This document shows positions 40,107-52,458 of a stretch of 64,000 nucleotides of DNA, one piece after another. The translations under genes were made by a program, and so were the position numbers. The stretch comes from an uncultured Flavobacteriaceae bacterium. Its GTDB lineage: Bacteria; Bacteroidota; Bacteroidia; Flavobacteriales; Flavobacteriaceae. Each line of letters starts with the position of its first letter. The stretch's first letter is position 1. Under the pieces are notes generated by a model. The model was not told the origin of the DNA. It saw nothing but the letters and a program-made list of their open reading frames with translations, and did no database searches. The stretch lies in contig CALSPF010000001.1 of assembly GCA_943788165.1 (NCBI GenBank), forward strand, positions 248,001 through 312,000. Reading direction: 5' to 3'.

Positions 40107-40811
40107 TTACGATAAATAATGTTTGAAAATCCAACCAATAATTTTCGCTCCGGCAAATATAGTCCCTTTTATTGTCCCAGATACTTTGGAAACACCAATT
40201 CTTTTCTTGTAGGAAACAGGGATTTCTTTATGGCTTATTTTCTGACGTAAAACTTTCAGTTGCATCTCTACTGTCCAACCATAGGTTTTGTCCGACATTT
40301 TTAAACTTTGCAGGGTTTCCCATTTAATGGCGCGAAAAGGACCAAGGTCTGTAAAGGTGGAGTTGAATAAGCCCTTCATTAAAAAACAGGCCAACCAATT
40401 TCCAAAGATTTGCTGGGGAGTCATTGAGCCTTCCTCTCGTAATTCTTTTACACGTGCTCCAACCACAAAGTCAACTTCGTTATTCTGTATGGGGGCAATT
40501 ATTTTTATCAGTTCCACAGGGTAATCAGAGAAATCGCCATCGAGAAAGACCACCACATCTGGTGGGCATTGCTGCCGTGCTGCATGCTCAATACCTTTTA
40601 AACAAGCATATCCATAGCCCATACGGTTTTCGTCAAAAACAGTCGCTCCTGCTGTAGCGGCAACGGTTGCTGTTTTATCGGTAGAACAATTGTTTACTAC
40701 AATAATTTCATTGACCAAAGAAGGGATTTCCTTGATGACTTTAGCAATGGAGCCTTCTTCGTTATAAGCTGGGATAATAACAGTAACAGACAGAGAAGAT
40801 GTTGTGTTCAA
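40107..40811 (-). CDS. GT2 glycosyltransferase (polyprenyl-phosphate sugar synthase type)
   Basis: 234 aa, soluble GT2. VTVIIPAYNEEGSIAKVI, EIIVVNNCSTDKTATVA, VVFLDGDFSDYPVELIK (D-x-D) and FTDLGPFRAIKWETL plus KTYGWTVEMQLK are the blocks of the dolichyl-phosphate glucose/mannose synthase group. It lacks membrane helices. It may load the lipid carrier used by the polytopic enzymes downstream. In an operon with the membrane GT2 (11 nt) and the polyferredoxin gene (14 nt upstream). Confidence 0.87.
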   Translation of the reverse strand: MNTTSSLSVTVIIPAYNEEGSIAKVIKEIPSLVNEIIVVNNCSTDKTATVAATAGATVFDENRMGYGYACLKGIEHAARQQCPPDVVVFLDGDFSDYPVELIKIIAPIQNNEVDFVVGARVKELREEGSMTPQQIFGNWLACFLMKGLFNSTFTDLGPFRAIKWETLQSLKMSDKTYGWTVEMQLKVLRQKISHKEIPVSYKKRIGVSKVSGTIKGTIFAGAKIIGWIFKHYLS

Positions 40812-40825
40812 TTTTGTAAAGTAAA

Positions 40826-42385
40826 TTAATTGTCCAAGGTGTTTCCTAGGGGAAAGTTAGGTAAATGAGTTCTGTTAGCTACTGGGCCGTTTTCTAATTT
40901 TAATACTCCACGTGGGCATACGGCAGAACAGACACCACAGCCAACACAAGAAGAGCGGACAATATTTTGTCCTTTTTGTGCATAGGCGCGAACATCAATT
41001 CCCATCTCACAATAGGTCGAGCAGTTTCCACAAGAAATACATTGACCTCCATTTGTTGTAATACGGAAACGTGATTTAAAGCGTTGAACCAAACCTAGGT
41101 AGGCTGCGAGCGGACAACCAAAGCGACACCAAACACGGTTTCCGAAAATAGGATAAAACCCAGTTCCTATAACACCTGCAAAAATAGAGCCGATTAAAAA
41201 GCCGTAGATACTTTGAATCGTTTGTGTTTTAATCCCTAAAACTGCACTTGTTCCAGAGAAGTAAGTGTAGAGTGTAAAGCCAGTCATGACGATTGAGAAT
41301 GCCAACACACCATGGACCAACCAGCGTTCTAATTTCCACGCACCAATAGATTTATTTGAAAGGTGACGATACGGATCGCCGAGCGTTTCGGCTAAACCCC
41401 CACATCCACAGACCCAAGAGCAATACCAGCGTTTTCCATAGAAGTAAACCATCACTGGAAAGATGACTAGGGTCAATGCAATCCCCCAAACGAGAATGAA
41501 TAAACCAAACCCACCACTAGAGATTAAACTATTTAGATTCCAGCTGAAGAAAAAATCGTAATCAAGAGGGAATGCATTTTTAAAATCATACCATGGTTTT
41601 TCGAAGCGTACCAATATTTCTGGGATCAAAAAAGCAAAGACGATTTGAAAAAATAGGACAGAGGTAGTTCTTAGAATTTGGTACTTATTGTTTCGGTATT
41701 TAATGTACATGCGGATCGCCATAACAGTCATCACAACACAATATAAATAGCCGTATAAAAACCATTGACTTGCTAAGTTACCGCTCAGACTTTGACTGAT
41801 TGGATCGACGATATAGGTCCAATTGACAATATAATCTGGGAAAAAGTATAACAAAACATAAAAGCTCACTAAGAAGATAAAAACTGACCATCCTAAAAAA
41901 CCCCTGTTCGTGCTAGAGTCGAAGAAAATGCCATTGTTTTTTATTCCAGGAGGCCCTAGTGTAATTACGTTAGGTATGATGTACAACAACGAACCAATAA
42001 TGCCCAATCCAAAGGTTATAAACCAAAACCAACCTTTGTTGTTTGGAATCATTCCCGTCCCAGCTTTTTTAGCCACCTCATAAGAGAAACTGTGGGGTTT
42101 GTCCCAAATCACTTTACTCCATTCTCTTTTCTTTCGATGGACTTTGTTAGCTTCTTCGAGGGCGGTATTGATCCTTGTTGAGAATTCAAAAGGACCCGAG
42201 AATTCTTTGTCTACTAGGTTTCGTTTAATGTTAGCAATAAAAACTTCGCTTTTAATTCCTTTCTCAGCAATTAAAGCGTCAAACTGCTTGGCTTTGAGTT
42301 GGTATTTTCCAATAAAAATTAGCGCGCAAAAAATAGCCAATCCTGACAAGAATACCCCCAATCCGAATTTTTGTAATGTTTTCAT
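40826..42385 (-). CDS. 4Fe-4S membrane protein (NapH/CcoG-like)
   Basis: 519 aa from ATG 42385, which shares the A of its ATG with the stop of the preceding gene (TAATG). Around eight helices; a cytosolic-side cysteine cluster CSWVCGCGG; C-R-F-G-C-P; two ferredoxin motifs near the C-terminus, CISCGNCSTYCEMGID and CVGCGVCSAVCPRG. This is the NapH/RdxA type layout of a membrane electron conduit. Together with the FAD oxidoreductase it should pass electrons from NAD(P)H into or across the membrane. The acceptor is not known; the linked glycosyltransferases suggest a surface molecule, but that is a guess. Confidence 0.86.
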   Translation of the reverse strand: MKTLQKFGLGVFLSGLAIFCALIFIGKYQLKAKQFDALIAEKGIKSEVFIANIKRNLVDKEFSGPFEFSTRINTALEEANKVHRKKREWSKVIWDKPHSFSYEVAKKAGTGMIPNNKGWFWFITFGLGIIGSLLYIIPNVITLGPPGIKNNGIFFDSSTNRGFLGWSVFIFLVSFYVLLYFFPDYIVNWTYIVDPISQSLSGNLASQWFLYGYLYCVVMTVMAIRMYIKYRNNKYQILRTTSVLFFQIVFAFLIPEILVRFEKPWYDFKNAFPLDYDFFFSWNLNSLISSGGFGLFILVWGIALTLVIFPVMVYFYGKRWYCSWVCGCGGLAETLGDPYRHLSNKSIGAWKLERWLVHGVLAFSIVMTGFTLYTYFSGTSAVLGIKTQTIQSIYGFLIGSIFAGVIGTGFYPIFGNRVWCRFGCPLAAYLGLVQRFKSRFRITTNGGQCISCGNCSTYCEMGIDVRAYAQKGQNIVRSSCVGCGVCSAVCPRGVLKLENGPVANRTHLPNFPLGNTLDN

Positions 42386-43734
42386 TAGTTTGTGATTAGG
42401 TTGGCGAAAATTCTTCTCCAACTTTTCTTTTTTAATCGAATGTTTGTACCGAATTCTTGGTTGAATTTTGCGATGATTTCTCCACCATAAGAGGTACAAA
42501 ATTCTGGATCAAAATTACAATCATTCAAATGCTCAACAACATGGAGAACGGTTCTTTTTTCTGTTAACATTTGGTCGAAAATTTCATGACGCATGCGTAT
42601 TCCCAATGTGTTGATTCCTATGAATTCATTTGTTTCTTTATTGAAAGCAATTGTGATGCCAAGATTTTTTGCTGGATTTTCCCATTGAAAATGAATTTCG
42701 GGTTCTGTTGGGTGTGCAGCGACCAATCCATATGTCTGGTATTCTATGTCAAAAAATTTGGCGCTGTTAAACCATTGCCCAGGATGATAGGCTGATTTTT
42801 CTCCGGTTAATGTTTTTGCCAAGGTTTCACCCATCATTCGTCCGGTATACCAAACAGCTTCAATGGGTCTTCTTCCAGGAACTGGTTCTTGCTGTTCGGC
42901 ACAGTCCCCAATGGCATAAATATCGGGCAGATTTGTTTCCAAGTATTTATTGACAAGGATACCGCGGTTGGTGTCGATTGAACTGTCTTTGATGAAATCT
43001 ATGTTAGGACGAACACCAACAGTAAGTCCAACAAACTGACATGGGATGATTTCATCTTTATCTGTACGTATTGCTTTGGCTCTTCCGTTTTCGTCTTCAA
43101 TAATTTCGCTTAGGCTTGTAGCAAGTCTAAGGTCAATTCCATGTGATAAAATATGACGGTTGATCATTTGAGATTCTCCTTTTGGAAGAACATTGCTCCA
43201 GAAACTTTTTTCTCTGACCAAAAAAGTTACTTTTTTCCCTCTAACCTGGAGCATTTCGGCTAATTCAATTCCAATAAGTCCGCCGCCAACAATCACAGCT
43301 TCTTCGATTGATGGACTCAAGGCTTCTAACTTTTCAAGATCTTGTTTTGAATACAATCCTTGGACTCCTTTTAAATTTTCTCCTGGCCAACCAAATTTAT
43401 TTGGAATAGATCCTGTGGCCAAAACAAGCGAGGCATAAGAAAGTGTATTGCCATTGGAAACCGTAAGTTTTTTTTTCTCAGGATCAATTTCGGTTACAGT
43501 TTCTTCTAATAAGTCAAGCCTATTTTTCTTCCAAAAATGATTTTCATAGGGTTGGATATGTTCCCACTTGAGGTGCCCCATATAGACATACATCATGGCA
43601 GTTCGGGAAAAAAAATAGCGACTTTCTTTGGATATAATTAGGATAGGAGCGTCACTTCTTTTGCGGATGTGTCTTGCGGTTGTAATGCCAGCAATTCCAT
43701 TTCCAATGATAATGATCGGGGTTTGGGATACCAT
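42385..43734 (-). CDS. NAD(P)/FAD-dependent oxidoreductase
   Basis: 449 aa. Two dinucleotide folds: IIIGNGIAGITTARHI (FAD, 6-21) and AVIVGGGLIGIELAEML (NAD(P)H), plus GDCAEQQEP with DIYAIGDC near 320 (FAD). Resembles pyridine-nucleotide-disulfide oxidoreductases of the ferredoxin/rubredoxin-reductase group without a redox-active CxxxxC. First gene of the operon with the 4Fe-4S protein, so electrons likely flow NAD(P)H - FAD - Fe-S. The C-terminal part (about 400-449) contains LNDCNFDPEFCTSYGG, two extra cysteines of unknown role. Confidence 0.88.
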   Translation of the reverse strand: MVSQTPIIIIGNGIAGITTARHIRKRSDAPILIISKESRYFFSRTAMMYVYMGHLKWEHIQPYENHFWKKNRLDLLEETVTEIDPEKKKLTVSNGNTLSYASLVLATGSIPNKFGWPGENLKGVQGLYSKQDLEKLEALSPSIEEAVIVGGGLIGIELAEMLQVRGKKVTFLVREKSFWSNVLPKGESQMINRHILSHGIDLRLATSLSEIIEDENGRAKAIRTDKDEIIPCQFVGLTVGVRPNIDFIKDSSIDTNRGILVNKYLETNLPDIYAIGDCAEQQEPVPGRRPIEAVWYTGRMMGETLAKTLTGEKSAYHPGQWFNSAKFFDIEYQTYGLVAAHPTEPEIHFQWENPAKNLGITIAFNKETNEFIGINTLGIRMRHEIFDQMLTEKRTVLHVVEHLNDCNFDPEFCTSYGGEIIAKFNQEFGTNIRLKKKSWRRIFANLITN

Positions 43735-44559: not shown

Positions 44560-45561
44560 ATGGATTTAAAGGGAATTGTATTTTTCTGTTTTTTTGGCTG
44601 TTTCATGTTTGTACACAGCCAAAAAATGCATGGACTAAGTTTTGTGGGAACACGAGATGATATTCAGATTTCCCAAGTGAAAAAGATTCAGGATGTTAAC
44701 GCCAATTGGGTAACGCTCATGCCATTTGGTTATCTCTATAGCTTGCAAGACAGTGTTGTGAAGTTTAACCGAACTGGGCAATGGAAAGGAGAAACAGCCA
44801 AAGGTATAAATGAAACGATTCCGCTATTTCATCAAGCTGGAATCAAAGTGATGCTGAAGCCTCAATTGTGGATAAGAAATGGAGCTTTTACAGGGAAAAT
44901 TGACCTAAAAAGTAAACGTGAATGGGCCTCTTTTAAAAGATCATACAGCACATTTATTTTGCATTTTGCTGCTTTAGCAGAAGAGCATCGATTGCCCTTA
45001 TTTTGTATTGGTACAGAACTGACTTCAGTCGTAGAAAATGATCCAGACTATTGGAGGGATTTAATTATATCGATTAGACAAATTTACTCAGGAAAGTTAA
45101 CCTATGCTGAAAACTGGGATAGTTATACAAAAGTTGATTTCTGGGATCAGTTAGATTTTATTGGGGTGAACGCTTATTTCCCTCTAAAGGGAAAAGAAAG
45201 CTTGAGTGTGTCTGTTTTAAAAAAACGATGGATTCCAACAGTGACGGTTTTGACCCAATTGAGTGATTCTTTAAAACGTCCGGTGGTATTTACAGAAATG
45301 GGGTACAGAAGTATAGATGATCCGGTTTCTCGGCCTTGGGATTACCGTCAAAAAGATGTACACTTTAATCCAGTTGCGCAGGCCATTGCATTGGAAGCTT
45401 TGTTTGAAACATTTCAGCCCAAAAGCTGGTGGGCTGGTGGTTTTGTCTGGAAGTGGTTTCCTCAACATTCAACAGCAGGTGGCAATGGACATAAAGGCTT
45501 CACCCCACAAAATAAGATGGCTGAAACGGTATTGCGGTCCTATTTCACAAAGGCAGAGTAG
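44560..45561 (+). CDS. GH113-like glycoside hydrolase (beta-mannanase type)
   Basis: 333 aa. Signal peptide 1-20 (ends in VHSQ), then a TIM barrel: GLSFVGTRDDI, VNANWVTLMPFGYL, HQAGIKVMLKPQLWI, FCIGTELTS (acid/base E153), FIGVNAYFPL and VFTEMGYRS (nucleophile E246). These two Glu motifs and the F-G-Y turn are typical of GH113, which includes endo-beta-1,4-mannanases. Probably secreted to periplasm or surface. Overlaps, tail to tail, the end of the glycosyltransferase pseudogene. Confidence 0.82.
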   Translation: MDLKGIVFFCFFGCFMFVHSQKMHGLSFVGTRDDIQISQVKKIQDVNANWVTLMPFGYLYSLQDSVVKFNRTGQWKGETAKGINETIPLFHQAGIKVMLKPQLWIRNGAFTGKIDLKSKREWASFKRSYSTFILHFAALAEEHRLPLFCIGTELTSVVENDPDYWRDLIISIRQIYSGKLTYAENWDSYTKVDFWDQLDFIGVNAYFPLKGKESLSVSVLKKRWIPTVTVLTQLSDSLKRPVVFTEMGYRSIDDPVSRPWDYRQKDVHFNPVAQAIALEALFETFQPKSWWAGGFVWKWFPQHSTAGGNGHKGFTPQNKMAETVLRSYFTKAE

Positions 45562-46246
45562 TATCGACTAAGTTGTTTAGGCGAGCATCCAATGAAACGC
45601 ATCAGATGAATAATTCCGTGATGGTAATGGAGGCGTCACAGACCATTTTCTTCAAATCTGCGTGCAGAAGTTGTTATTTTTTGTGGTAAAACGCTAAAGC
45701 CATTGTTTTTGTAAATCCGATCGATCAATTCTCCATCTTCACAAACTTGGTAAGTCTCATTGAAACCATTCAACTGGTCAAACAGCACTTTGTCAATGAA
45801 TAACGACTGATCACCACCCCTGCAAATTCGAACGTTAAAGCGCGTAGCATAAGCCGACCATTTCAATGCTTTTTTTGAAGAATAAAATTGGGGTTGGAAG
45901 CAGCCTGCTTTTGCTCCTAGGGATTTTTTTCTAGAATGTGCAAATCAAAATTTTTGGGCGGAATACTGTCCACATGAAGGAAGTAATGCAGTTTGAATCT
46001 TGCTGCTTTAGCGCCAAGATTCATTTGTTTGGCTCGCCCTTTTTCACTCCTGATTAATGTGCAATGCTGCTGCGTATTGATGTATTGGTCGCCTCCATCA
46101 TCACTGCCCCCAACTACAAATATCAATTGATTTTTATAAAATGAATTGACCAAAAGTGCATCTATGAACCTGGGTAGAACTGAAGCTTTATTTAAAACAG
46201 GAACAATAATGGATATACCTTTCTTATTCGTTGAGTTGCCAGTCAT
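45540..46246 (-). pseudogene. TIGR04283-type arsenosugar glycosyltransferase, interrupted (frameshift plus TGA)
   Basis: Last gene of the arsenosugar operon. From ATG 46246 it reads ISIIVPVLNKASVLPRFIDALL, VVGGSDDGGDQY, RAKQMNLGAKAARF, FLHVDSIPPKNFDLHILE, then breaks. A T7/A7 run (45924-45930 on plus) is one base short: with an eighth A it continues as KSLGAKAGCFQPQFYSS, ATRFNVRICRGGDQSLF and SARRFEENGL. A TGA (complement of 45636-45638) then stands where Trp is expected (homologues have NG(V/L)WR), followed by RLHYHHGIIHLMRFIGCSP to TAG at 45540. In this family the protein is thought to transfer a sugar in arsenosugar synthesis. With two lesions it should be inactive, unless the sequence is faulty. 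Confidence 0.8.
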
Positions 46247-46925
46247 AGGTAAAAAAATCCACTTTTGGATTTTCATTGAAGGGTTGGTTTGCATATTTTC
46301 GGATAAAAGCAATGCGTTCTTTTTTATTTCCAAAGTCATCACTGAACCACTGGAAGATACGTGAAATTTCAATTTTCTTCTCACTTAGTTTATTCCTCTT
46401 TGTATCGTTAATAAAGTCGTGGGTAACTTGTTCCAGTTGTTTTTCCATTGTGTGCGATTCGAAAGCAACATTGATCAATTTTGGACAAGAGGCAGAAGCA
46501 CAATTGATGGCAAAATGAATGCGAGGCTCATTCATCTTTCGGAGAATTTCATGTTCAATATGATTCAAGGAAACTTTTTCACCGTTCAAAGTAAAACGTT
46601 TAAATCGCCAAGGGGTAACTAAATTCCGAATGCTTTTTAGAGGGTATTTATCTAAAATTAATTTTACCGTAACGGCATTGTAGGCATTGATGAAGTAGGC
46701 CAACGAATCACTTTTTGACCAAGCTTCTACTGGTGGGTTTTCTTCCAATGTTTGAAGGTAGTTATCCAAATAGGTGGTGTCTTTTTTCCAGCTTTTGTAG
46801 TTCACGTTTCCGTCATCATCAACATGTTCTTGTAATGCGGACGTCCATAAATTATGCATGCTTTTTTGTCCAACAACAGACATAGACAGAAAAAGCATTA
46901 TTCCAGTAATATAACGTAGGTTCAT
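46224..46925 (-). CDS. DUF547 protein of the arsenosugar operon
   Basis: 233 aa from ATG 46925 (MNLRYITGIMLFLSMSVVGQ, signal peptide); the ATG at 46946 overlaps arsM. DUF547 marks: FINAYNAVTVKLILDKYP, LNHIEHEILRKMNEPRIHFAINCASASCPKL (split over two motifs, with the conserved NCASxSCP), then FINDTKRNKL. DUF547 proteins are secreted or periplasmic, with a putative cysteine-protease-like fold; function unsettled. The gene lies between arsM and the TIGR04283 glycosyltransferase, an order seen in flavobacterial arsenosugar clusters. Its last 23 nt overlap the next gene. Confidence 0.84.
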   Translation of the reverse strand: MNLRYITGIMLFLSMSVVGQKSMHNLWTSALQEHVDDDGNVNYKSWKKDTTYLDNYLQTLEENPPVEAWSKSDSLAYFINAYNAVTVKLILDKYPLKSIRNLVTPWRFKRFTLNGEKVSLNHIEHEILRKMNEPRIHFAINCASASCPKLINVAFESHTMEKQLEQVTHDFINDTKRNKLSEKKIEISRIFQWFSDDFGNKKERIAFIRKYANQPFNENPKVDFFTYDWQLNE

Positions 46926-46936
46926 GAGAAGGGCGA

Positions 46937-47905
46937 TTAGCAACAACCGCCACCATCATAGTGAAAAGTAGACTCACTGATGTAGAGGTTATCTTGGTTA
47001 TTGTTTTTTAGTGCATTAGCTGTTTTGTCACAAATGGCTAATGGCTGATTTTTGAGTAAAATATGTCCATTCTCATCGTCAAAAAAATCTTCATTACCAA
47101 AATAGATGGCTGCTTTTCCGGTAAATACACAAGGACCATCTGCTGGCATGGGGTCTTTTATTGCGCATACTTCAACGCTTTCAATAAAGATAGTTTCCTC
47201 GGTTGGATAATGTTTACTATCTAAGATTCGATAGGGTCGTTTTGCACGACATTCAATGGTGCCAAAACCAACATCGGTCAAAAGTTTTATGTAATCATTT
47301 AAAGGAATAGAACCAGAGAGACACAAAGCGCGAAGGCGTTCATCTTCTCGAAGTGTATCGTTCATGGGTTGTTCGCAAATTGGGTCACTCATAACCAAAC
47401 GGCCATGAGGTTTCAAAACACGGTACATTTCTTCCAATGCTTTTTTGAGTTCATCCAATTTAAAAATATTGAATAAGCAATTTTGCGCAGCCACATCAAT
47501 GCTTTCGTCTTTAACAGGTAAAGCCAAGGCATCCCCTTTTTTAAGGGTAACAAAGTCCGATTGAAACCAATCGTTTTCTTTTTCTGCAATCACGAAATTC
47601 TTACGTGAGGCCTCCAGCATTTCATCTACAACATCAATCCCAATAACACCTTCTTTTTGTCTAGAAAAATAAGAGAATTGAAGTAATTCCATTCCGCCGC
47701 CAACACCCACATAAAGAATTTTTGGATTATTGACCAAGTCTCTTGGGTGAACGGTTGACCCACAGCCATAATTCATTTCTTGCATTATGGTTGGAATCGA
47801 TAATCCTGGGAATTGCCATATTGGAGTAGTGGTACAACATAAACCTACATCTGGTGTGAGGGCTGCTTCTTTGTATACATCTTTGGTAACTTCTAAGTAA
47901 CTCAT
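46937..47905 (-). CDS. arsM: Arsenosugar-pathway arsenite methyltransferase (ArsM-like)
   Basis: 322 aa SAM methyltransferase. SAM motif I is YVGVGGGMELL (65-75), then VIGIDVVDEMLEASRKNF; other blocks are AALPVKDESIDVAAQNCLFN and MYRVLKPHGRL. Many cysteines that can hold As(III): C23-C24, C48, C143, C177, C195 and a C-terminal GGGCC. ArsM uses SAM to methylate arsenite to methyl-arsenicals; the arsenosugar version leads to dimethylarsenic. It sits with arsS, which takes the next step, so the assignment is supported by context. The start is 2 nt after the PNP stop. Confidence 0.9.
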   Translation of the reverse strand: MSYLEVTKDVYKEAALTPDVGLCCTTTPIWQFPGLSIPTIMQEMNYGCGSTVHPRDLVNNPKILYVGVGGGMELLQFSYFSRQKEGVIGIDVVDEMLEASRKNFVIAEKENDWFQSDFVTLKKGDALALPVKDESIDVAAQNCLFNIFKLDELKKALEEMYRVLKPHGRLVMSDPICEQPMNDTLREDERLRALCLSGSIPLNDYIKLLTDVGFGTIECRAKRPYRILDSKHYPTEETIFIESVEVCAIKDPMPADGPCVFTGKAAIYFGNEDFFDDENGHILLKNQPLAICDKTANALKNNNQDNLYISESTFHYDGGGCC

Positions 47906-47906
47906 T

Positions 47907-48731
47907 TTATTTTTTTTGGGTGGATAGTAATTCTTTTACGATGATAATCAAAGACTGTTCCGCTTTTTTGGCTGAAGCCATGATGTCTTCAATATTAATA
48001 GGGGCTAGGTTTTGTGGATCACAAAGATCGGTCAAAACGGAAAATGCTATGCATTCCATTTTGAGTTGATTGGCTACAATAACTTCTGGAACAGTTGACA
48101 TTCCCACTGCATCTACACCAATAATTTTAAGGTAACGGTATTCTGCTTTTGTTTCCAGTTGAGGTCCAGTTACTGCAGCATATACCCCTGCATGTAAAGC
48201 GAAATTATTACGCTGTGCAATACTCTTTGCTTTTCGGATTAGCTTGGGCGAATATGGAGCACTCATGTCTACAAAACGCTCTCCCAATTCTTCAATGCCT
48301 TTTTCTGCCAGAGGCGATCCGGCTTGGAGATTGATATGGTCTTCAATGAGCATGACCTCTCCTTTTTTAAAGGCAAGGTTGATTGCGCCAGCAGCATTGC
48401 TTATAATGAGTTGTTGAGCACCCATGGCATGCATGAGTCGAACGGGGTAGGTTATTTCAAAATAACTAAGTCCTTCGTAAGCATGAAATCGGCCTTCAAA
48501 AATGACTACTTTGTTGTTTTCTAGACTACCGTAAATCAATCTTCCTTTGTGGAATTCCATGGTTGGTTTCGGAAAATGAGGAATAGCGCTGTAAGGAATT
48601 TCTCGTTCAATCTGAATCTGGTCAATAAGGTCTCCAACTCCCGTTCCAAGGATAATTCCTACGGCACCAGCTTCGATACCCATGTTTGTTAAAAAGACTT
48701 GACTTTGGTTGATTTTTTCTTGTTTGTTCAT
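47907..48731 (-). CDS. Purine nucleoside phosphorylase (in arsenosugar operon)
   Basis: 274 aa of the trimeric PNP family: GIILGTGVGDLIDQI, PHFPKPTMEFHKGRLIYG, FHAYEGLSYFEITYPVRLMHAMG, ISNAAGAIN (catalytic Asn/phosphate region) and YRYLKIIGVDAVGMSTVPEVIVANQL. It splits nucleosides with phosphate. In the arsenosugar pathway it can plausibly remove adenine from the 5'-dimethylarsinoyl-5'-deoxyadenosine formed by ArsS, yielding the ribosyl phosphate. The overlap of its ATG with the stop of the downstream-facing GT gene (4 nt) shows operon membership. Confidence 0.92.
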   Translation of the reverse strand: MNKQEKINQSQVFLTNMGIEAGAVGIILGTGVGDLIDQIQIEREIPYSAIPHFPKPTMEFHKGRLIYGSLENNKVVIFEGRFHAYEGLSYFEITYPVRLMHAMGAQQLIISNAAGAINLAFKKGEVMLIEDHINLQAGSPLAEKGIEELGERFVDMSAPYSPKLIRKAKSIAQRNNFALHAGVYAAVTGPQLETKAEYRYLKIIGVDAVGMSTVPEVIVANQLKMECIAFSVLTDLCDPQNLAPINIEDIMASAKKAEQSLIIIVKELLSTQKK

Positions 48732-49327
48732 TTCAAGAGTTGCATTAGTTCTGGATGATCTTTAAGATCATTGTAGGTGTCGATGTCGTTTTTTTCTTCC
48801 AACAAATAAACGTCTTCTTTTTTAAGATCATTCAGGCTATTTGATAATACTGTTGGGGTTCCCCATTTTTTATTTTCAAATAGCGCTGGGATAAACTTTT
48901 GTAGCCCCAAAAGATAATAGCCTCCGTCGGCAGAGGGGCCAATCACTGTTCCACTGGTCTGGAGTGCTTCAAACGCTTTGTGAATATCGAAAATATCAAG
49001 CGTCCACAAGTCTGTACCAATAATAACAATGGGAGAATACGATTTAAAACCTTCTTTAAATGCATTGGTCATACGGATGCCCAGATCATTTCCCGTTTGT
49101 ATTTTTTTTGTGATCGAGGGTTTTTGGAATATATCGTCATGATCAATATGCGATGAATAGTATAATTGGATATCTATATCAACATCAAACAGGACAAGGG
49201 CAGTTTTTTGTAAAAGTGCGTGATATACCTCCAGCGCTTTTTCTTCACCAATGGAAGCAGCCAAGCGTGTTTTAGCTTTCCCTAAGATTGGATTTTTACA
49301 GAAGACAAGTAAGAGTGGTTTTTTCAA
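48728..49327 (-). CDS. TIGR04282-type arsenosugar glycosyltransferase
   Basis: 199 aa if started at a TTG at 49327, 12 nt after the arsS stop. The first ATG, at 49360, would overlap arsS and add LIFVHLKKP-type residues. Sequence marks: LLLVFCKNPILGKAKTRLAAS, the start of the family, then GNDLGIRMTNAFKEGF, VIIGTDLWTLDIFDI (Asp) and GPSADGGYYLLGL. It is related to cofactor guanylyltransferase/GT-A folds. The family is named for its presence in arsenosugar clusters and is predicted to act on the arsenosugar. Overlaps PNP by 4 nt. Confidence 0.86.
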   Translation of the reverse strand: MKKPLLLVFCKNPILGKAKTRLAASIGEEKALEVYHALLQKTALVLFDVDIDIQLYYSSHIDHDDIFQKPSITKKIQTGNDLGIRMTNAFKEGFKSYSPIVIIGTDLWTLDIFDIHKAFEALQTSGTVIGPSADGGYYLLGLQKFIPALFENKKWGTPTVLSNSLNDLKKEDVYLLEEKNDIDTYNDLKDHPELMQLLK

Positions 49328-49338
49328 GTGTACAAATA

Positions 49339-50397
49339 TTAAGCAATGCTTCCTTGGCAACTACTCCCTGCTCCTGCGGTGCAGCCGTAGCAATGTTGAG
49401 AGAGTTGGATTTTACGTTGTTGTAGTTCAACTGCGTTAAAATCACGAATATGAGAATGTTTGCTAGCAACTTTTAATTCAAGCATTTGATTAAAGTCACA
49501 ATCATATAAATGGCCTTCCCAGCTTACTGAAAGGGTATTGGTACACATTACATTTTCTGCCGCCGCAGGATTAAATGCATCCACTAGGGCATGCATATAT
49601 TCCTCATAGTTTTCAGAAGCAATTAAATAATCTAAAAAACGACTAATGGGTAAATTGGTGATGGTGAACAATTGATTGAATTCAATCCCAAAATCTTCCC
49701 TTAATGCTTTTTTAAAATCGTCTTCTAGCGCCATTTGATCACCGGGCAAAAAGGCCCCTGAAGGGTTGTAAACAAGGTCAAGTTGAAGCTGCCTATCTTT
49801 TTTACCATAGCCTGCAGTATTTAATTTTTGTAGTGCTTTTATGGATTGATCAAACACACCTGTCCCTCTTTGACGGTCGGTTTTGTCACGTTTGTAAAAT
49901 GGAAGAGAAGAGATGACATGTACATTGTGCAGGGCAAAAAAATCGGGTAAATCGTTGTATTTTTTATTGGCCATGATGATGGTCAAATTGGAACGTACAA
50001 TGATTTCATTCACCGAGGTTCTCGACCTAATTTGTTCCACAAACCAACGGAAATCTGGGTGCATCTCTGGCGCTCCACCGGTCAAGTCAACGGTTTCAAT
50101 TGTGTTTGCTTCCATTACTGCGATACACTCTTCCATGGTAGTGCGGGTCATCATTTCTTTTCGATCTGGACCTGCATCAACATGACAATGTACACAAACT
50201 TGGTTGCACATATAGCCAACATTAAGTTGAAGAATGGTTAGTTTTTGGGGTTCTATTGGCGCTAAGGCATGCTCTTTTAGTTTTTGTTTAAATGTTGGGA
50301 GTTGTCCGTTTTGAAAAACACCATTGGATAGGATTTCCAATTGTCGATCGGTATTGGAAAGCTCGTTTTGTTGTGCTTTTAAGGATTTTGAGGCCAT
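49339..50397 (-). CDS. arsS: Arsenosugar biosynthesis radical SAM protein ArsS
   Basis: 352 aa. Radical SAM cluster motif CNQVCVHC at C64, C68, C71 (QLNVGYMCNQVCVHCHVDAG), GGAPEMHPDF, LDLVYNPSGAFLPGDQ, and C-terminal auxiliary cysteines CTNTLSVSWEGHLYDCDFNQ and CYGCTAGAGSSCQG. ArsS moves the 5'-deoxyadenosyl group onto dimethylarsenite, giving the precursor of arsenosugars; this is known for the cyanobacterial homologue. Its cysteine set and length match. It is the diagnostic gene of this operon. Confidence 0.93.
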   Translation of the reverse strand: MASKSLKAQQNELSNTDRQLEILSNGVFQNGQLPTFKQKLKEHALAPIEPQKLTILQLNVGYMCNQVCVHCHVDAGPDRKEMMTRTTMEECIAVMEANTIETVDLTGGAPEMHPDFRWFVEQIRSRTSVNEIIVRSNLTIIMANKKYNDLPDFFALHNVHVISSLPFYKRDKTDRQRGTGVFDQSIKALQKLNTAGYGKKDRQLQLDLVYNPSGAFLPGDQMALEDDFKKALREDFGIEFNQLFTITNLPISRFLDYLIASENYEEYMHALVDAFNPAAAENVMCTNTLSVSWEGHLYDCDFNQMLELKVASKHSHIRDFNAVELQQRKIQLSQHCYGCTAGAGSSCQGSIA

Positions 50398-50402
50398 ATT
50401 GG

Positions 50403-50738
50403 TTACATGCTTAATTGGTCGTGACGATTCATCATCTGCACTCCATGAACAAGAACTGCGCCACTTTTGATGGCTGCGCCCACATGCACAGCTTCCATCA
50501 TTTCTTCCTTTTCAATTCCGCGTTGAAGCCCATCTTTGGTGTAGGCATCAATGCAATAGGGGCAATGTACAACATGAGAAACGGCTAAAGCAATTAAGGA
50601 CTTCTCTCTTGCCGTTAAATGCCCTTCCTTAAAAACACTTGCATAGTATTTGAAAAATTTGTCTCCAAGCTCTTTATTCCACTCAGTTATTTGGCTAAAT
50701 TTTTTTAAATCGTCGGGATTGAAATAGTCTTTTTTCAT
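50403..50738 (-). CDS. Carboxymuconolactone decarboxylase-family protein (arsenosugar-associated peroxidase-like)
   Basis: 111 aa, AhpD/CMD fold. Redox-active pair in HCPYCIDAYTKDG (C59, C62), preceded by TAREKSLIALAVSHVV and followed by GIEKEEMMEAVHVGAAIKSGAVLVHG. It belongs to the arsenosugar-associated peroxidase-like group and may protect the pathway or reduce an arsenical or peroxide (inference). First gene of the leftward operon; arsS follows after 5 nt. The promoter region lies between this gene and the LytS remnant; no perfect TAnnTTTG is seen there. Confidence 0.87.
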   Translation of the reverse strand: MKKDYFNPDDLKKFSQITEWNKELGDKFFKYYASVFKEGHLTAREKSLIALAVSHVVHCPYCIDAYTKDGLQRGIEKEEMMEAVHVGAAIKSGAVLVHGVQMMNRHDQLSM

Positions 50739-50914: not shown

Positions 50915-51710
50915 TGCTCTCATTAACCACCAACATAGCGATTCCATTGTTTGTAAGTAATTTTATTACCATTACACTCATCGTTTTTTTTTTGGTCGAG
51001 ATCGATCTAGACAGCGTTCAGCCTACCGCGACCAAATTGCTCGCCTCGAATCTCAATCACTAAAAGCTCAAATGAATCTGCACTTTATTTACAACACCCT
51101 AAATGGAATTCAAAGTGTCTTGATGCTGAAAGGGGAGGAAAAGACCAATCAGTATGTCGGTATTTTTTCACGAATGCTTCGAAAAAAATTAGACATGTCT
51201 TCTTCTGATAATATGACCTTGTCCGAAGAAATTGATTACATACAAGGTTATATCGCCCTTCAAAATATTCGTTTGGAACGACCAATCAATTTCAGTGTTA
51301 CTTTTGAGAATAAATTGAATCCAGATACCTGTCTTATTGCTCCAATGCTACTTCAGCCTATTGTTGAAAATGCCATTATTCATGGTTTGGTGCACCAAAA
51401 AGAAGAAGGCCTAATCGAACTCAAAGTCAAGCATTCTGAAGATTCTTTGGTTTTGCATGTTGAAGATAACGGGATGGGTAGAAAAGCTGCAAGTCGATTA
51501 CAGAAAACCAATGCACTAAGGAAAAATGTTCATAAATCACATGCAACAAAAATCTTAAAAGAGCGCATCGATATTTTGAACTATATCTATAAAACAAAAT
51601 CCGTCTTTTAACTGGAAGATATACTAGATGAAGGAATTATTTGTGGAACAAGAGCCGTATTGATTGTTCCAGAAATCACAGAAAAAAATAAAGCACATGA
51701 AAATGTTTAA
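50914..51710 (+). pseudogene. LytS-type sensor histidine kinase, interrupted (T10 run and in-frame TAA)
   Basis: Frame from ATG 50914 reads LTTNIAIPLFVSNFITITLIVFF (one helix), then breaks in a T10 run (50984-50993). One more T would join it to RDRSRQRSAYRDQIARLESQSLKAQ and MNLHFIYNTLNGIQ (phospho-acceptor His, His_kinase family), NIRLERPINF, and VEDNGMGRKAA. A TAA at 51609-51611 then stands inside the HATPase tail; the same frame continues LEDILDEGIICGTRAVLIVPEI to TAA 51708-51710. Intact LytS kinases of this type sense cell-surface state. With two lesions it is probably dead or misread; the paired regulator is intact and overlaps its end. Confidence 0.8.
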
Positions 51711-52458
51711 AACAGTTCTTGTAGAAGACGAGAAAAATAATTTAGACCTACTCAACCATTTCATTAAAAAATACTGTAAGAACATTGACGTTGTTGCCTC
51801 ATGTTCTAACTATGACCAAGCACTGAGCGTTCTGAAAGCAGAAGAGCCAGATTTGGTTTTTCTCGATATAGTGTTAGATAGAGATACTTCTTTCGACCTC
51901 TTACAGGAATTGGGTAATCCTGATTTTCAAATTATTTTCACCACCGCCTATGACGAGTATGCTATTCGTGCATTCAAATACAATACGATTGATTATCTTT
52001 TGAAGCCTATTATTATCGAAGAACTTGTGGCAGCAGTAAATAAAGTCGCTGAAAAGATAAATGAGAACAAAACCTTGGATATGGGAAGTATTAAAAACAT
52101 TTCTCAATCTTTTAACACCAAGCATCCAGCAAATTTCATCATGATTTATGGAATGGATCGTATCGATTTTATTCATCCGGATGAAGCGGTTTGCTTAAAA
52201 TCGACGGGCCGTTATACAGAGTTTTATTTAAAAGATAAAAAGTGTAAAATTACTTCTTCAAAACCCATTGGTGAGTATGAGAATATTTTAGATCAAGATG
52301 TTTTTTATCGAATACACAATTCCTTTCTCATCAATTTAGCGCAATTAATCAATATTAATAAACGTGCGGGGAACTATTGCGAAATGTCAAACGGAGATTC
52401 CTTGCCGCTTTCCAGAAGACGTAATGAAGGATTGATGGGCTACATGCGAAACAGATGA
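51697..52458 (+). CDS. LytTR-family response regulator
   Basis: 253 aa from ATG 51697 (MKMFKTVLVEDEKN). Receiver 1-115 with acidic pair, phospho-acceptor D57 (LVFLDIVLD) and Lys (LLKP); C-terminal LytTR DNA-binding domain (about 150-250, CLKSTGRYTEFYLKD, RIHNSFLINLAQL, LPLSRRRNEGLMGYM). LytTR regulators bind direct repeats upstream of targets; none could be identified here. It overlaps the kinase remnant by 14 nt and would need another kinase if the latter is dead. Convergent with the VanY gene, 8-nt gap. Confidence 0.93.
   Translation: MKMFKTVLVEDEKNNLDLLNHFIKKYCKNIDVVASCSNYDQALSVLKAEEPDLVFLDIVLDRDTSFDLLQELGNPDFQIIFTTAYDEYAIRAFKYNTIDYLLKPIIIEELVAAVNKVAEKINENKTLDMGSIKNISQSFNTKHPANFIMIYGMDRIDFIHPDEAVCLKSTGRYTEFYLKDKKCKITSSKPIGEYENILDQDVFYRIHNSFLINLAQLININKRAGNYCEMSNGDSLPLSRRRNEGLMGYMRNR

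Follow-up and report, generated by a model that had tools for sequence, protein, structure and literature searches.

Which enzymes turn the arseno-adenosine formed by ArsS into a finished arsenosugar? We took up this question with an operon on the minus strand at positions 45540-50738 of a 64,000-nucleotide stretch of DNA (here called the window) from an uncultured Flavobacteriaceae bacterium (GenBank assembly GCA_943788165.1, contig CALSPF010000001.1, positions 248,001 to 312,000). In Synechocystis PCC 6803, ArsS acts with ArsM in the initial steps of arsenosugar formation (PMC8552651), and a radical S-adenosylmethionine (SAM) enzyme adenosylates arsenic (PMC12159101); the cyanobacterial ArsM-ArsS work of Xue et al. 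2019 and Cheng et al. 2021 is quoted here through the accessible excerpts of these two articles. No enzyme is named for the steps after ArsS in the excerpts of open-access literature retrieved for arsenosugar with ArsS, nucleoside phosphorylase, glycosyltransferase, nucleotidyltransferase or the family accessions.

A first-pass annotation of the window had proposed a leftward arsenosugar operon of seven genes with tiny gaps or overlaps. Open reading frames and profile scores bore out both this order and the few-base spacing, and the assignment to arsenosugar biosynthesis was likewise upheld by family scores above curated cut-offs. The genes are as follows.

50403-50738, minus strand: CMD/AhpD-like protein TIGR04169 of 111 amino acids with a CPYC motif (183.9 bits, cut-off 120; PF02627)
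49339-50397, minus strand: ArsS, by family a radical SAM arsenic adenosyltransferase, TIGR04167 plus DUF3641, 352 amino acids, CX3CX2C motif (448.5 bits, cut-off 300)
48728-49327, minus strand: TIGR04282 protein with a TTG start, read here as a CofC-like nucleotidyltransferase (190.8 bits, cut-off 134)
47907-48731, minus strand: purine nucleoside phosphorylase (PNP) NF006054 of the Leu200/Asp243/Ile257 class, human numbering (315.7 bits, cut-off 218)
46937-47905, minus strand: arsenosugar-type ArsM, NF038099, with the C terminus GGGCC (571 bits, cut-off 400)
46224-46925, minus strand: DUF547 protein PF04784 with, by eye, an export-signal-like start (91.5 bits, cut-off 27)
45540-46246, minus strand: broken TIGR04283 family-2 glycosyltransferase (GT2), in pieces at 45917-46246 (82.1 bits) and 45636-45866 (69.5 bits; cut-off 182)

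Six of the seven genes are open, each above its curated NCBIfam or Pfam cut-off, and five of the seven families carry NCBIfam names for the arsenosugar pathway. An upstream TTG at 49360 is an alternative start for the TIGR04282 gene. The CX3CX2C motif and further cysteines of ArsS, whose auxiliary cysteines the first-pass annotation had singled out for checking, are shared without exception by the eight proteins aligned, among them that of the window. Of the profile matches expected, those of ArsS and TIGR04282 exceed their cut-offs and those of the TIGR04283 pieces do not reach 182 bits; the operon had been taken as intact, which does not hold for this last gene, split by a frame change and an in-frame TGA. 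The host genome comprises 2.18 Mb in 4 contigs and is 94.55% complete. With these features, the locus is almost certainly a standard flavobacterial arsenosugar operon.

The arsenosugar gene set is common in Flavobacteriaceae and no curiosity of this window. Of 149 Flavobacteriaceae genomes, 111 have an ArsS above cut-off; in a set of 198 Bacteroidota genomes the count is 80. Within the Flavobacteriaceae, TIGR04282 was present in 111/111 genomes with ArsS and in 7/38 without (Fisher p 1e-25), PNP in 111/111 and 22/38 (p 2e-11), and TIGR04283 in 95/111 and 5/38 (p 6e-16), in tests that ignore kinship. Among the Bacteroidota, TIGR04282 at E <= 1e-25 accompanied ArsS in 79 of 80 genomes, with one of the 79 matches below the family cut-off and ArsS near a contig end in the single miss; without ArsS, it occurred in 45 of 118. 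A survey of synteny, as had been suggested earlier, revealed the recurring order CMD-ArsS-(rhodanese)-TIGR04282-PNP-ArsM-(fatty acid hydroxylase)-DUF547-TIGR04283 across the window and 110 other Flavobacteriaceae ArsS loci. In 73 of the 78 ArsS loci that hold both, PNP is the next gene after TIGR04282, and therefore the arrangement is not a matter of chance; the same was seen in 23/23 loci chosen because the pair adjoined. PNP precedes ArsM in 74/76 and DUF547 precedes TIGR04283 in 70/73 loci when ArsS loci and the 23 pair-selected loci are pooled. In other Flavobacteriaceae genomes the ArsS locus is separate from a TIGR04282-PNP locus. Some genomes with ArsS have no arsenosugar ArsM: NF038099 did not exceed its cut-off in 17 of 22, some of them incomplete, a biased rate since the ArsM search covered 39 selected genomes of the 149 and these 22 were mostly picked for ArsM missing at the locus.

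TIGR04282 and TIGR04283 had been annotated as two glycosyltransferases with a role in adding the aglycone or trimming the sugar. For TIGR04282 this was not sustained: by fold and motif it looks like a nucleotidyltransferase rather than a glycosyltransferase, and a division of labor in which one enzyme activates and the other transfers would take the place of the earlier proposal. The structure model of the window protein (mean predicted local distance difference test score [pLDDT], 97.0) has as its top solved match the uncharacterised 3cgx, also its sole PDB sequence match, followed by MM2497 (a probable nucleotidyltransferase), Rv2983, 3-phosphoglycerate guanylyltransferase and cytidylyltransferases. 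We take MM2497 to be CofC and Rv2983 to be FbiD. Glycosyltransferases make up 6 of the 50 fold matches listed, the first at rank 18. CofC proteins share a KTRL-type motif, and such a motif is present in 88 of 90 operon-type TIGR04282 members. Furthermore, TIGR04282 and TIGR04283 form one open frame, both domains above their cut-offs, in 7 of 100 loci scanned, namely the best 80 of 586 loci in a genome-contig sample, which is thereby biased towards relatives of the query, and 20 loci picked for long open frames. TIGR04282 comes first in L349, L354, L358 and L270, the last from Isosphaeraceae, and TIGR04283 in L350, L351 and L357. The existence of both orders points to two or more independent fusions, a usual sign of consecutive steps. 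In a further fusion, at L363, the partner of TIGR04282 is the CMD protein. A second TIGR04282 paralogue stands near CMD-ArsS in some genomes (L068:2729-3415 and 23 further open reading frames); it has the KTRL-type motif in 0/24, keeps GPxxDGGY in 22/24 and is perhaps a catalytically altered partner.

The PNP of the window is the sole PF01048 protein found in its genome. Human MTAP also belongs to PF01048; PNP profiles outscore MTAP profiles on the window protein. Leu200, Asp243 and Ile or Val257 are present in 78/78 PNPs read at Flavobacteriaceae ArsS loci, in 18/18 from split clusters of genomes with ArsS and in 37/37 near ArsS in the genome-contig sample, i.e., in 133/133 over three groups that share some genomes. 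The corresponding residues are Phe, Asn and His in human PNP and Phe, Asp and Val in human MTAP. For the wider Bacteroidota, 60 of the 80 genomes with ArsS were searched and the residues of 20 of 92 matches read; of the 118 without ArsS, 40 were searched and the best 30 of 63 matches read. Two arsenic-specific interpretations were rejected. Asp243 does not serve as an arsenic-linked sign of adenosine specificity, as it also occurs in nine His257-type flavobacterial PNPs, eight of them from genomes without ArsS. Nor is Ile/Val257 an arsenic adaptation of the 5' pocket, given that 23 of the 30 PNPs read from 30 Bacteroidota genomes without ArsS belong to the same class (Leu200, Asp243 and Ile, Val or Leu257); TIGR04282 is present in 10 of those 30 genomes. 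In the portions of the literature available, His257 of PNP is described as important yet dispensable (PMC7338719), while the bond it forms with the 5'-OH of one inhibitor did not persist in simulation (PMC4308819). Having a hydrophobic residue at this position would fit a substrate whose 5' substituent is not OH. The class looks like a general one, suited to 5'-modified adenosines and recruited by the operon, and not like an arsenic invention.

From these data we propose a five-step pathway. ArsM would methylate arsenite to dimethylarsenic (step 1), which ArsS would attach to SAM's adenosyl group at its 5' carbon, giving arseno-adenosine (step 2). PNP, with phosphate, would cleave arseno-adenosine into adenine and 5-deoxy-5-dimethylarsinoyl-ribose-1-phosphate (step 3); the removal of adenine by PNP had been put forward before and is retained as a supposition. 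The CofC-like TIGR04282 would couple the arseno-ribose-1-phosphate to a nucleotide (step 4), and TIGR04283 would transfer the arseno-ribose, as a beta-riboside, onto an acceptor that is an alcohol or a lipid (step 5). For the CMD protein a role as redox helper, and for DUF547 one as exported accessory, are guesses. PNP inverts, and so does a GT2 enzyme. Taken together, the two inversions would yield a beta riboside, as in arsenosugars, which are described as beta-ribofuranosides in the accessible parts of two sources (PMC10456119, Table 3; PMC6656958). Known bacterial ribofuranosyltransferases use phosphoribosyl pyrophosphate (PRPP) and transfer ribose with its 5-phosphate, according to the section available of PMC11127046; since arsenic at C5 leaves no place for the 5-phosphate of the PRPP route, another activation would be needed. 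Steps 1 and 2, in print for the cyanobacterial enzymes, would apply here by family membership, and steps 3 to 5 we infer from fold, fusion, gene order and co-occurrence. As a whole, we consider the mechanism moderately likely.

The strain itself should stop at activated arseno-ribose, or divert it, because its TIGR04283 gene is broken. A frame change lies between the two pieces, and the second stops at an in-frame TGA (45638-45636) before the natural stop at 45542-45540. Also absent is the Asp preceding GGS, which 90% or more of the aligned relatives share at that column. The pieces retain 47 of 51 conserved columns, as defined by a cluster of 76 TIGR04283 open reading frames of 229 to 293 amino acids whose coverage rule drops fragments, so that full length is partly built in; this little-worn remainder indicates that the loss is recent or partly a matter of assembly. 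A profile search of the whole genome gave no TIGR04283 match above cut-off and six matches elsewhere of at most 41.3 bits. Among the rows listed in the search of the 149 genomes, only the window's two TIGR04283 rows have internal stops, and a copy from the same genus (L059) is open over 230 amino acids. TIGR04283 above cut-off is missing from 16 of the 111 Flavobacteriaceae genomes with ArsS, the window's included and some of them incomplete. On a quick ArsS tree, in which 60 of 108 inner branches are open and several branches are long, this loss takes 13 changes, 5 of them forced by well-supported branches; 24 of 500 shuffles were as low. In five loci without TIGR04283 (L040, L083, L089, L137 and L142), the family-2-like glycosyltransferase of a neighbouring gene set described below stands a few genes behind PNP; it might substitute for TIGR04283 there.

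Could the breaks be assembly errors, with TIGR04283 intact in the living strain? The preservation of the conserved columns in both pieces speaks for this, as does a neighbouring kinase gene upstream of the operon that is also frame-broken, at a T10 run, so that part of the TIGR04283 damage could have arisen in assembly. An in-frame TGA and a lost Asp codon are, on the other hand, atypical of homopolymer errors; the six other operon genes are open, and 15 further genomes with ArsS, some incomplete, have no TIGR04283 above cut-off. We therefore regard an intact gene as improbable and the break as quite probably real in this strain. It is still less likely that TIGR04282 is a true glycosyltransferase, as its NCBIfam name states, and that the two enzymes act one after the other in transferring sugars or acceptors. 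Glycosyltransferases do have the broad GT-A fold and appear among the structural matches. Against this reading stand the best named fold matches, which are nucleotidyltransferases, the near-universal KTRL-type motif, the distant match to the CofC profile proper (TIGR03552; E 9.6e-6) and the fusion to a GT2-type domain in both orders. TIGR04282 is not CofC itself, since the match reached 25.3 bits against a cut-off of 105, which weighs against the five-step mechanism.

Two further explanations concern the placement of PNP and the cargo of the pathway, and most of the observations that weigh against the five-step mechanism bear on them. PNP might stand off the main line and salvage 5'-deoxyadenosine (a radical SAM by-product), methylthioadenosine (MTA) or ordinary nucleosides; in the same reading, another enzyme, or the transfer step itself, would remove adenine from arseno-adenosine. 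The PNP class is common without ArsS, and eight Flavobacteriaceae genomes that have neither ArsS nor TIGR04282 hold a PNP of the Leu/Asp/hydrophobic class; being the only PF01048 protein found in its genome, the window PNP may have to serve other nucleosides. In the 80-locus sample, spans around ArsS hold TIGR04282 in 61, PNP in 39 and TIGR04283 in 36 cases (the fused L270 counted under TIGR04283), and eight Chlorobi loci have ArsS, TIGR04282 and TIGR04283 with no PNP within the span. All 22 searched genomes of group f16, some linked to Chlorobiaceae or Chlorobium loci, have one PNP elsewhere, with Leu/Asp/Ile in 5/5 read. The Synechococcus elongatus control matches ArsS and TIGR04282 and gave no PF01048 match; therefore, PNP is not needed everywhere. 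Against a mere salvage role stand the position of PNP directly behind TIGR04282, its presence in every Flavobacteriaceae genome with ArsS and the need of a sugar nucleotidyltransferase for a sugar-1-phosphate, and we consider both salvage and removal of adenine by other means somewhat unlikely. A little less likely again is that TIGR04282-PNP-TIGR04283 serves more broadly in making 5-deoxy or otherwise 5-modified ribosides, arsenic being one of several cargoes. Five genomes that are 99-100% complete (G001, G018, G037, G104 and G129; loci L150-L154) keep rhodanese-TIGR04282-PNP-TIGR04283 with no ArsS above cut-off and no NF038099 ArsM match; DUF547 accompanies the module in three of them, and in G018 a short stretch matches the C-terminal part of ArsS at 54.7 bits. 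In addition, 45 of the 124 Bacteroidota genomes with TIGR04282 are without ArsS, and an S-methyl-5-thioribose-kinase-like gene stands beside the module in nine loci. However, TIGR04282 is far commoner with ArsS in Flavobacteriaceae, the five genomes could use imported arsenic nucleosides, and the breadth surveyed is that of the Bacteroidota only.

The module may nevertheless be older or wider than arsenic use. In general terms, a 5-blocked ribose would become a ribofuranoside via a nucleotide-activated ribofuranose, as an alternative to the PRPP route: a 5'-modified adenosine would be phosphorolysed, TIGR04282 would transfer the nucleotidyl group and TIGR04283 the glycosyl group; the cargo would be arsenic in cells with ArsS and another 5-deoxyribose in cells that have the module without ArsS. 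We offer this generalization tentatively, with chances a little short of even. The S-methyl-5-thioribose-kinase-like gene (124.2 bits, cut-off 275) stands with an ADP-ribosylglycohydrolase gene before TIGR04282-PNP (L159:8310-10894, L150, L151, L155, L161, L164, L165, L169 and L188). The kinase-like enzyme could make a 5-modified ribose-1-phosphate from the free sugar.

The remaining operon members and their companions were also inspected. A CxxC motif is present in 110/110 CMD open reading frames at the 111 Flavobacteriaceae ArsS loci. The DUF547 structure model, whose modelled part began inside the signal-like start, had a pLDDT of 92.8; comparison of its fold with the PDB gave no match at E <= 0.001, and the sole PDB sequence match had an E of 0.3. 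In 32 of 33 loci with both, DUF547 is preceded by a member of the fatty acid hydroxylase family (PF04116; seen at L122:7897-8799 and in 37 other loci), a position that hints at a lipid-linked product. The rhodanese-domain protein NF045521, "rhoda_near_glyco" (L107:547-1062 and 82 further loci), is absent from the window operon; of the 82 loci in which it occurs with TIGR04282, 79 have it immediately ahead of that gene.

On either side of the operon, the following genes were noted.

44560-45561, plus strand: convergent GH113-like hydrolase (PF22612, 169.1 bits), its 3' end overlapping the stop of the broken TIGR04283 gene
42385-43734, minus strand: flavin adenine dinucleotide (FAD)-dependent oxidoreductase (by eye), whose gene cluster recurs near the operon in 39 loci, the window included

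The GH113-like hydrolase is a frequent neighbour of the operon (51 loci including the window); its membership in the pathway is putative, as is the link of the oxidoreductase cluster. This cluster, at 40107-43734, consists of the FAD-dependent oxidoreductase, a 4Fe-4S membrane protein and a family-2-like glycosyltransferase, named by eye or from relatives, which recur beside arsenosugar operons. By eye, the kinase gene upstream of the operon (50960-51611) codes for a LytS-like sensor kinase; its frame is apparently broken at the T10 run that begins at 50984. It is followed by an open response-regulator-like gene (51664-52458). Near ArsS in L072, L074, L086 and other loci, a SusC/SusD-like pair (by eye), a sodium/solute symporter-like protein and a calcineurin-like phosphoesterase were seen, a possible uptake set. 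Promoter-like sites were not above shuffles (14 against a mean of 15.7), terminator-like sites were somewhat above them (8 against a mean of 4.9, standard deviation 2.5), and the sole match in an Rfam scan was a tRNA outside the operon.

These results put the database name "arsenosugar glycosyltransferase" for TIGR04282 in question. Two TIGR04282-labelled genes are listed under arsenosugar biosynthesis in the accessible part of one article (PMC13077682); because of the nucleotidyltransferase-like fold and the TIGR04282 genomes without ArsS, the label alone is not proof of arsenosugar capacity. An ordered pathway with named enzymes makes the steps after arseno-adenosine testable in few assays. 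Since the operon is common in Flavobacteriaceae, bacteria could add to the arsenosugar pool that is usually credited to algae.

Compared with the cyanobacterial ArsM-ArsS pathway, the flavobacterial operon shares the roles of ArsM and ArsS, and TIGR04282 is found in the S. elongatus control as well; the flavobacterial operon adds PNP, DUF547 and CMD, and the genome of the window has a broken TIGR04283. With human MTAP and trimeric PNP as references, the window-type PNP has an MTAP-like Asp243 and a hydrophobic residue 257, whereas its overall sequence is PNP-type with Leu at 200. TIGR04282 resembles the CofC/FbiD guanylyltransferases in fold, in its distant profile match and in the KTRL-type motif, but falls below the CofC cut-off, and its proposed substrate is a sugar-1-phosphate. 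Finally, PRPP-dependent ribofuranosyltransferases, as far as the available section of PMC11127046 describes them, and the route proposed here would both build beta-ribofuranosides; the former carry a 5-phosphate, while here arsenic would sit at C5.

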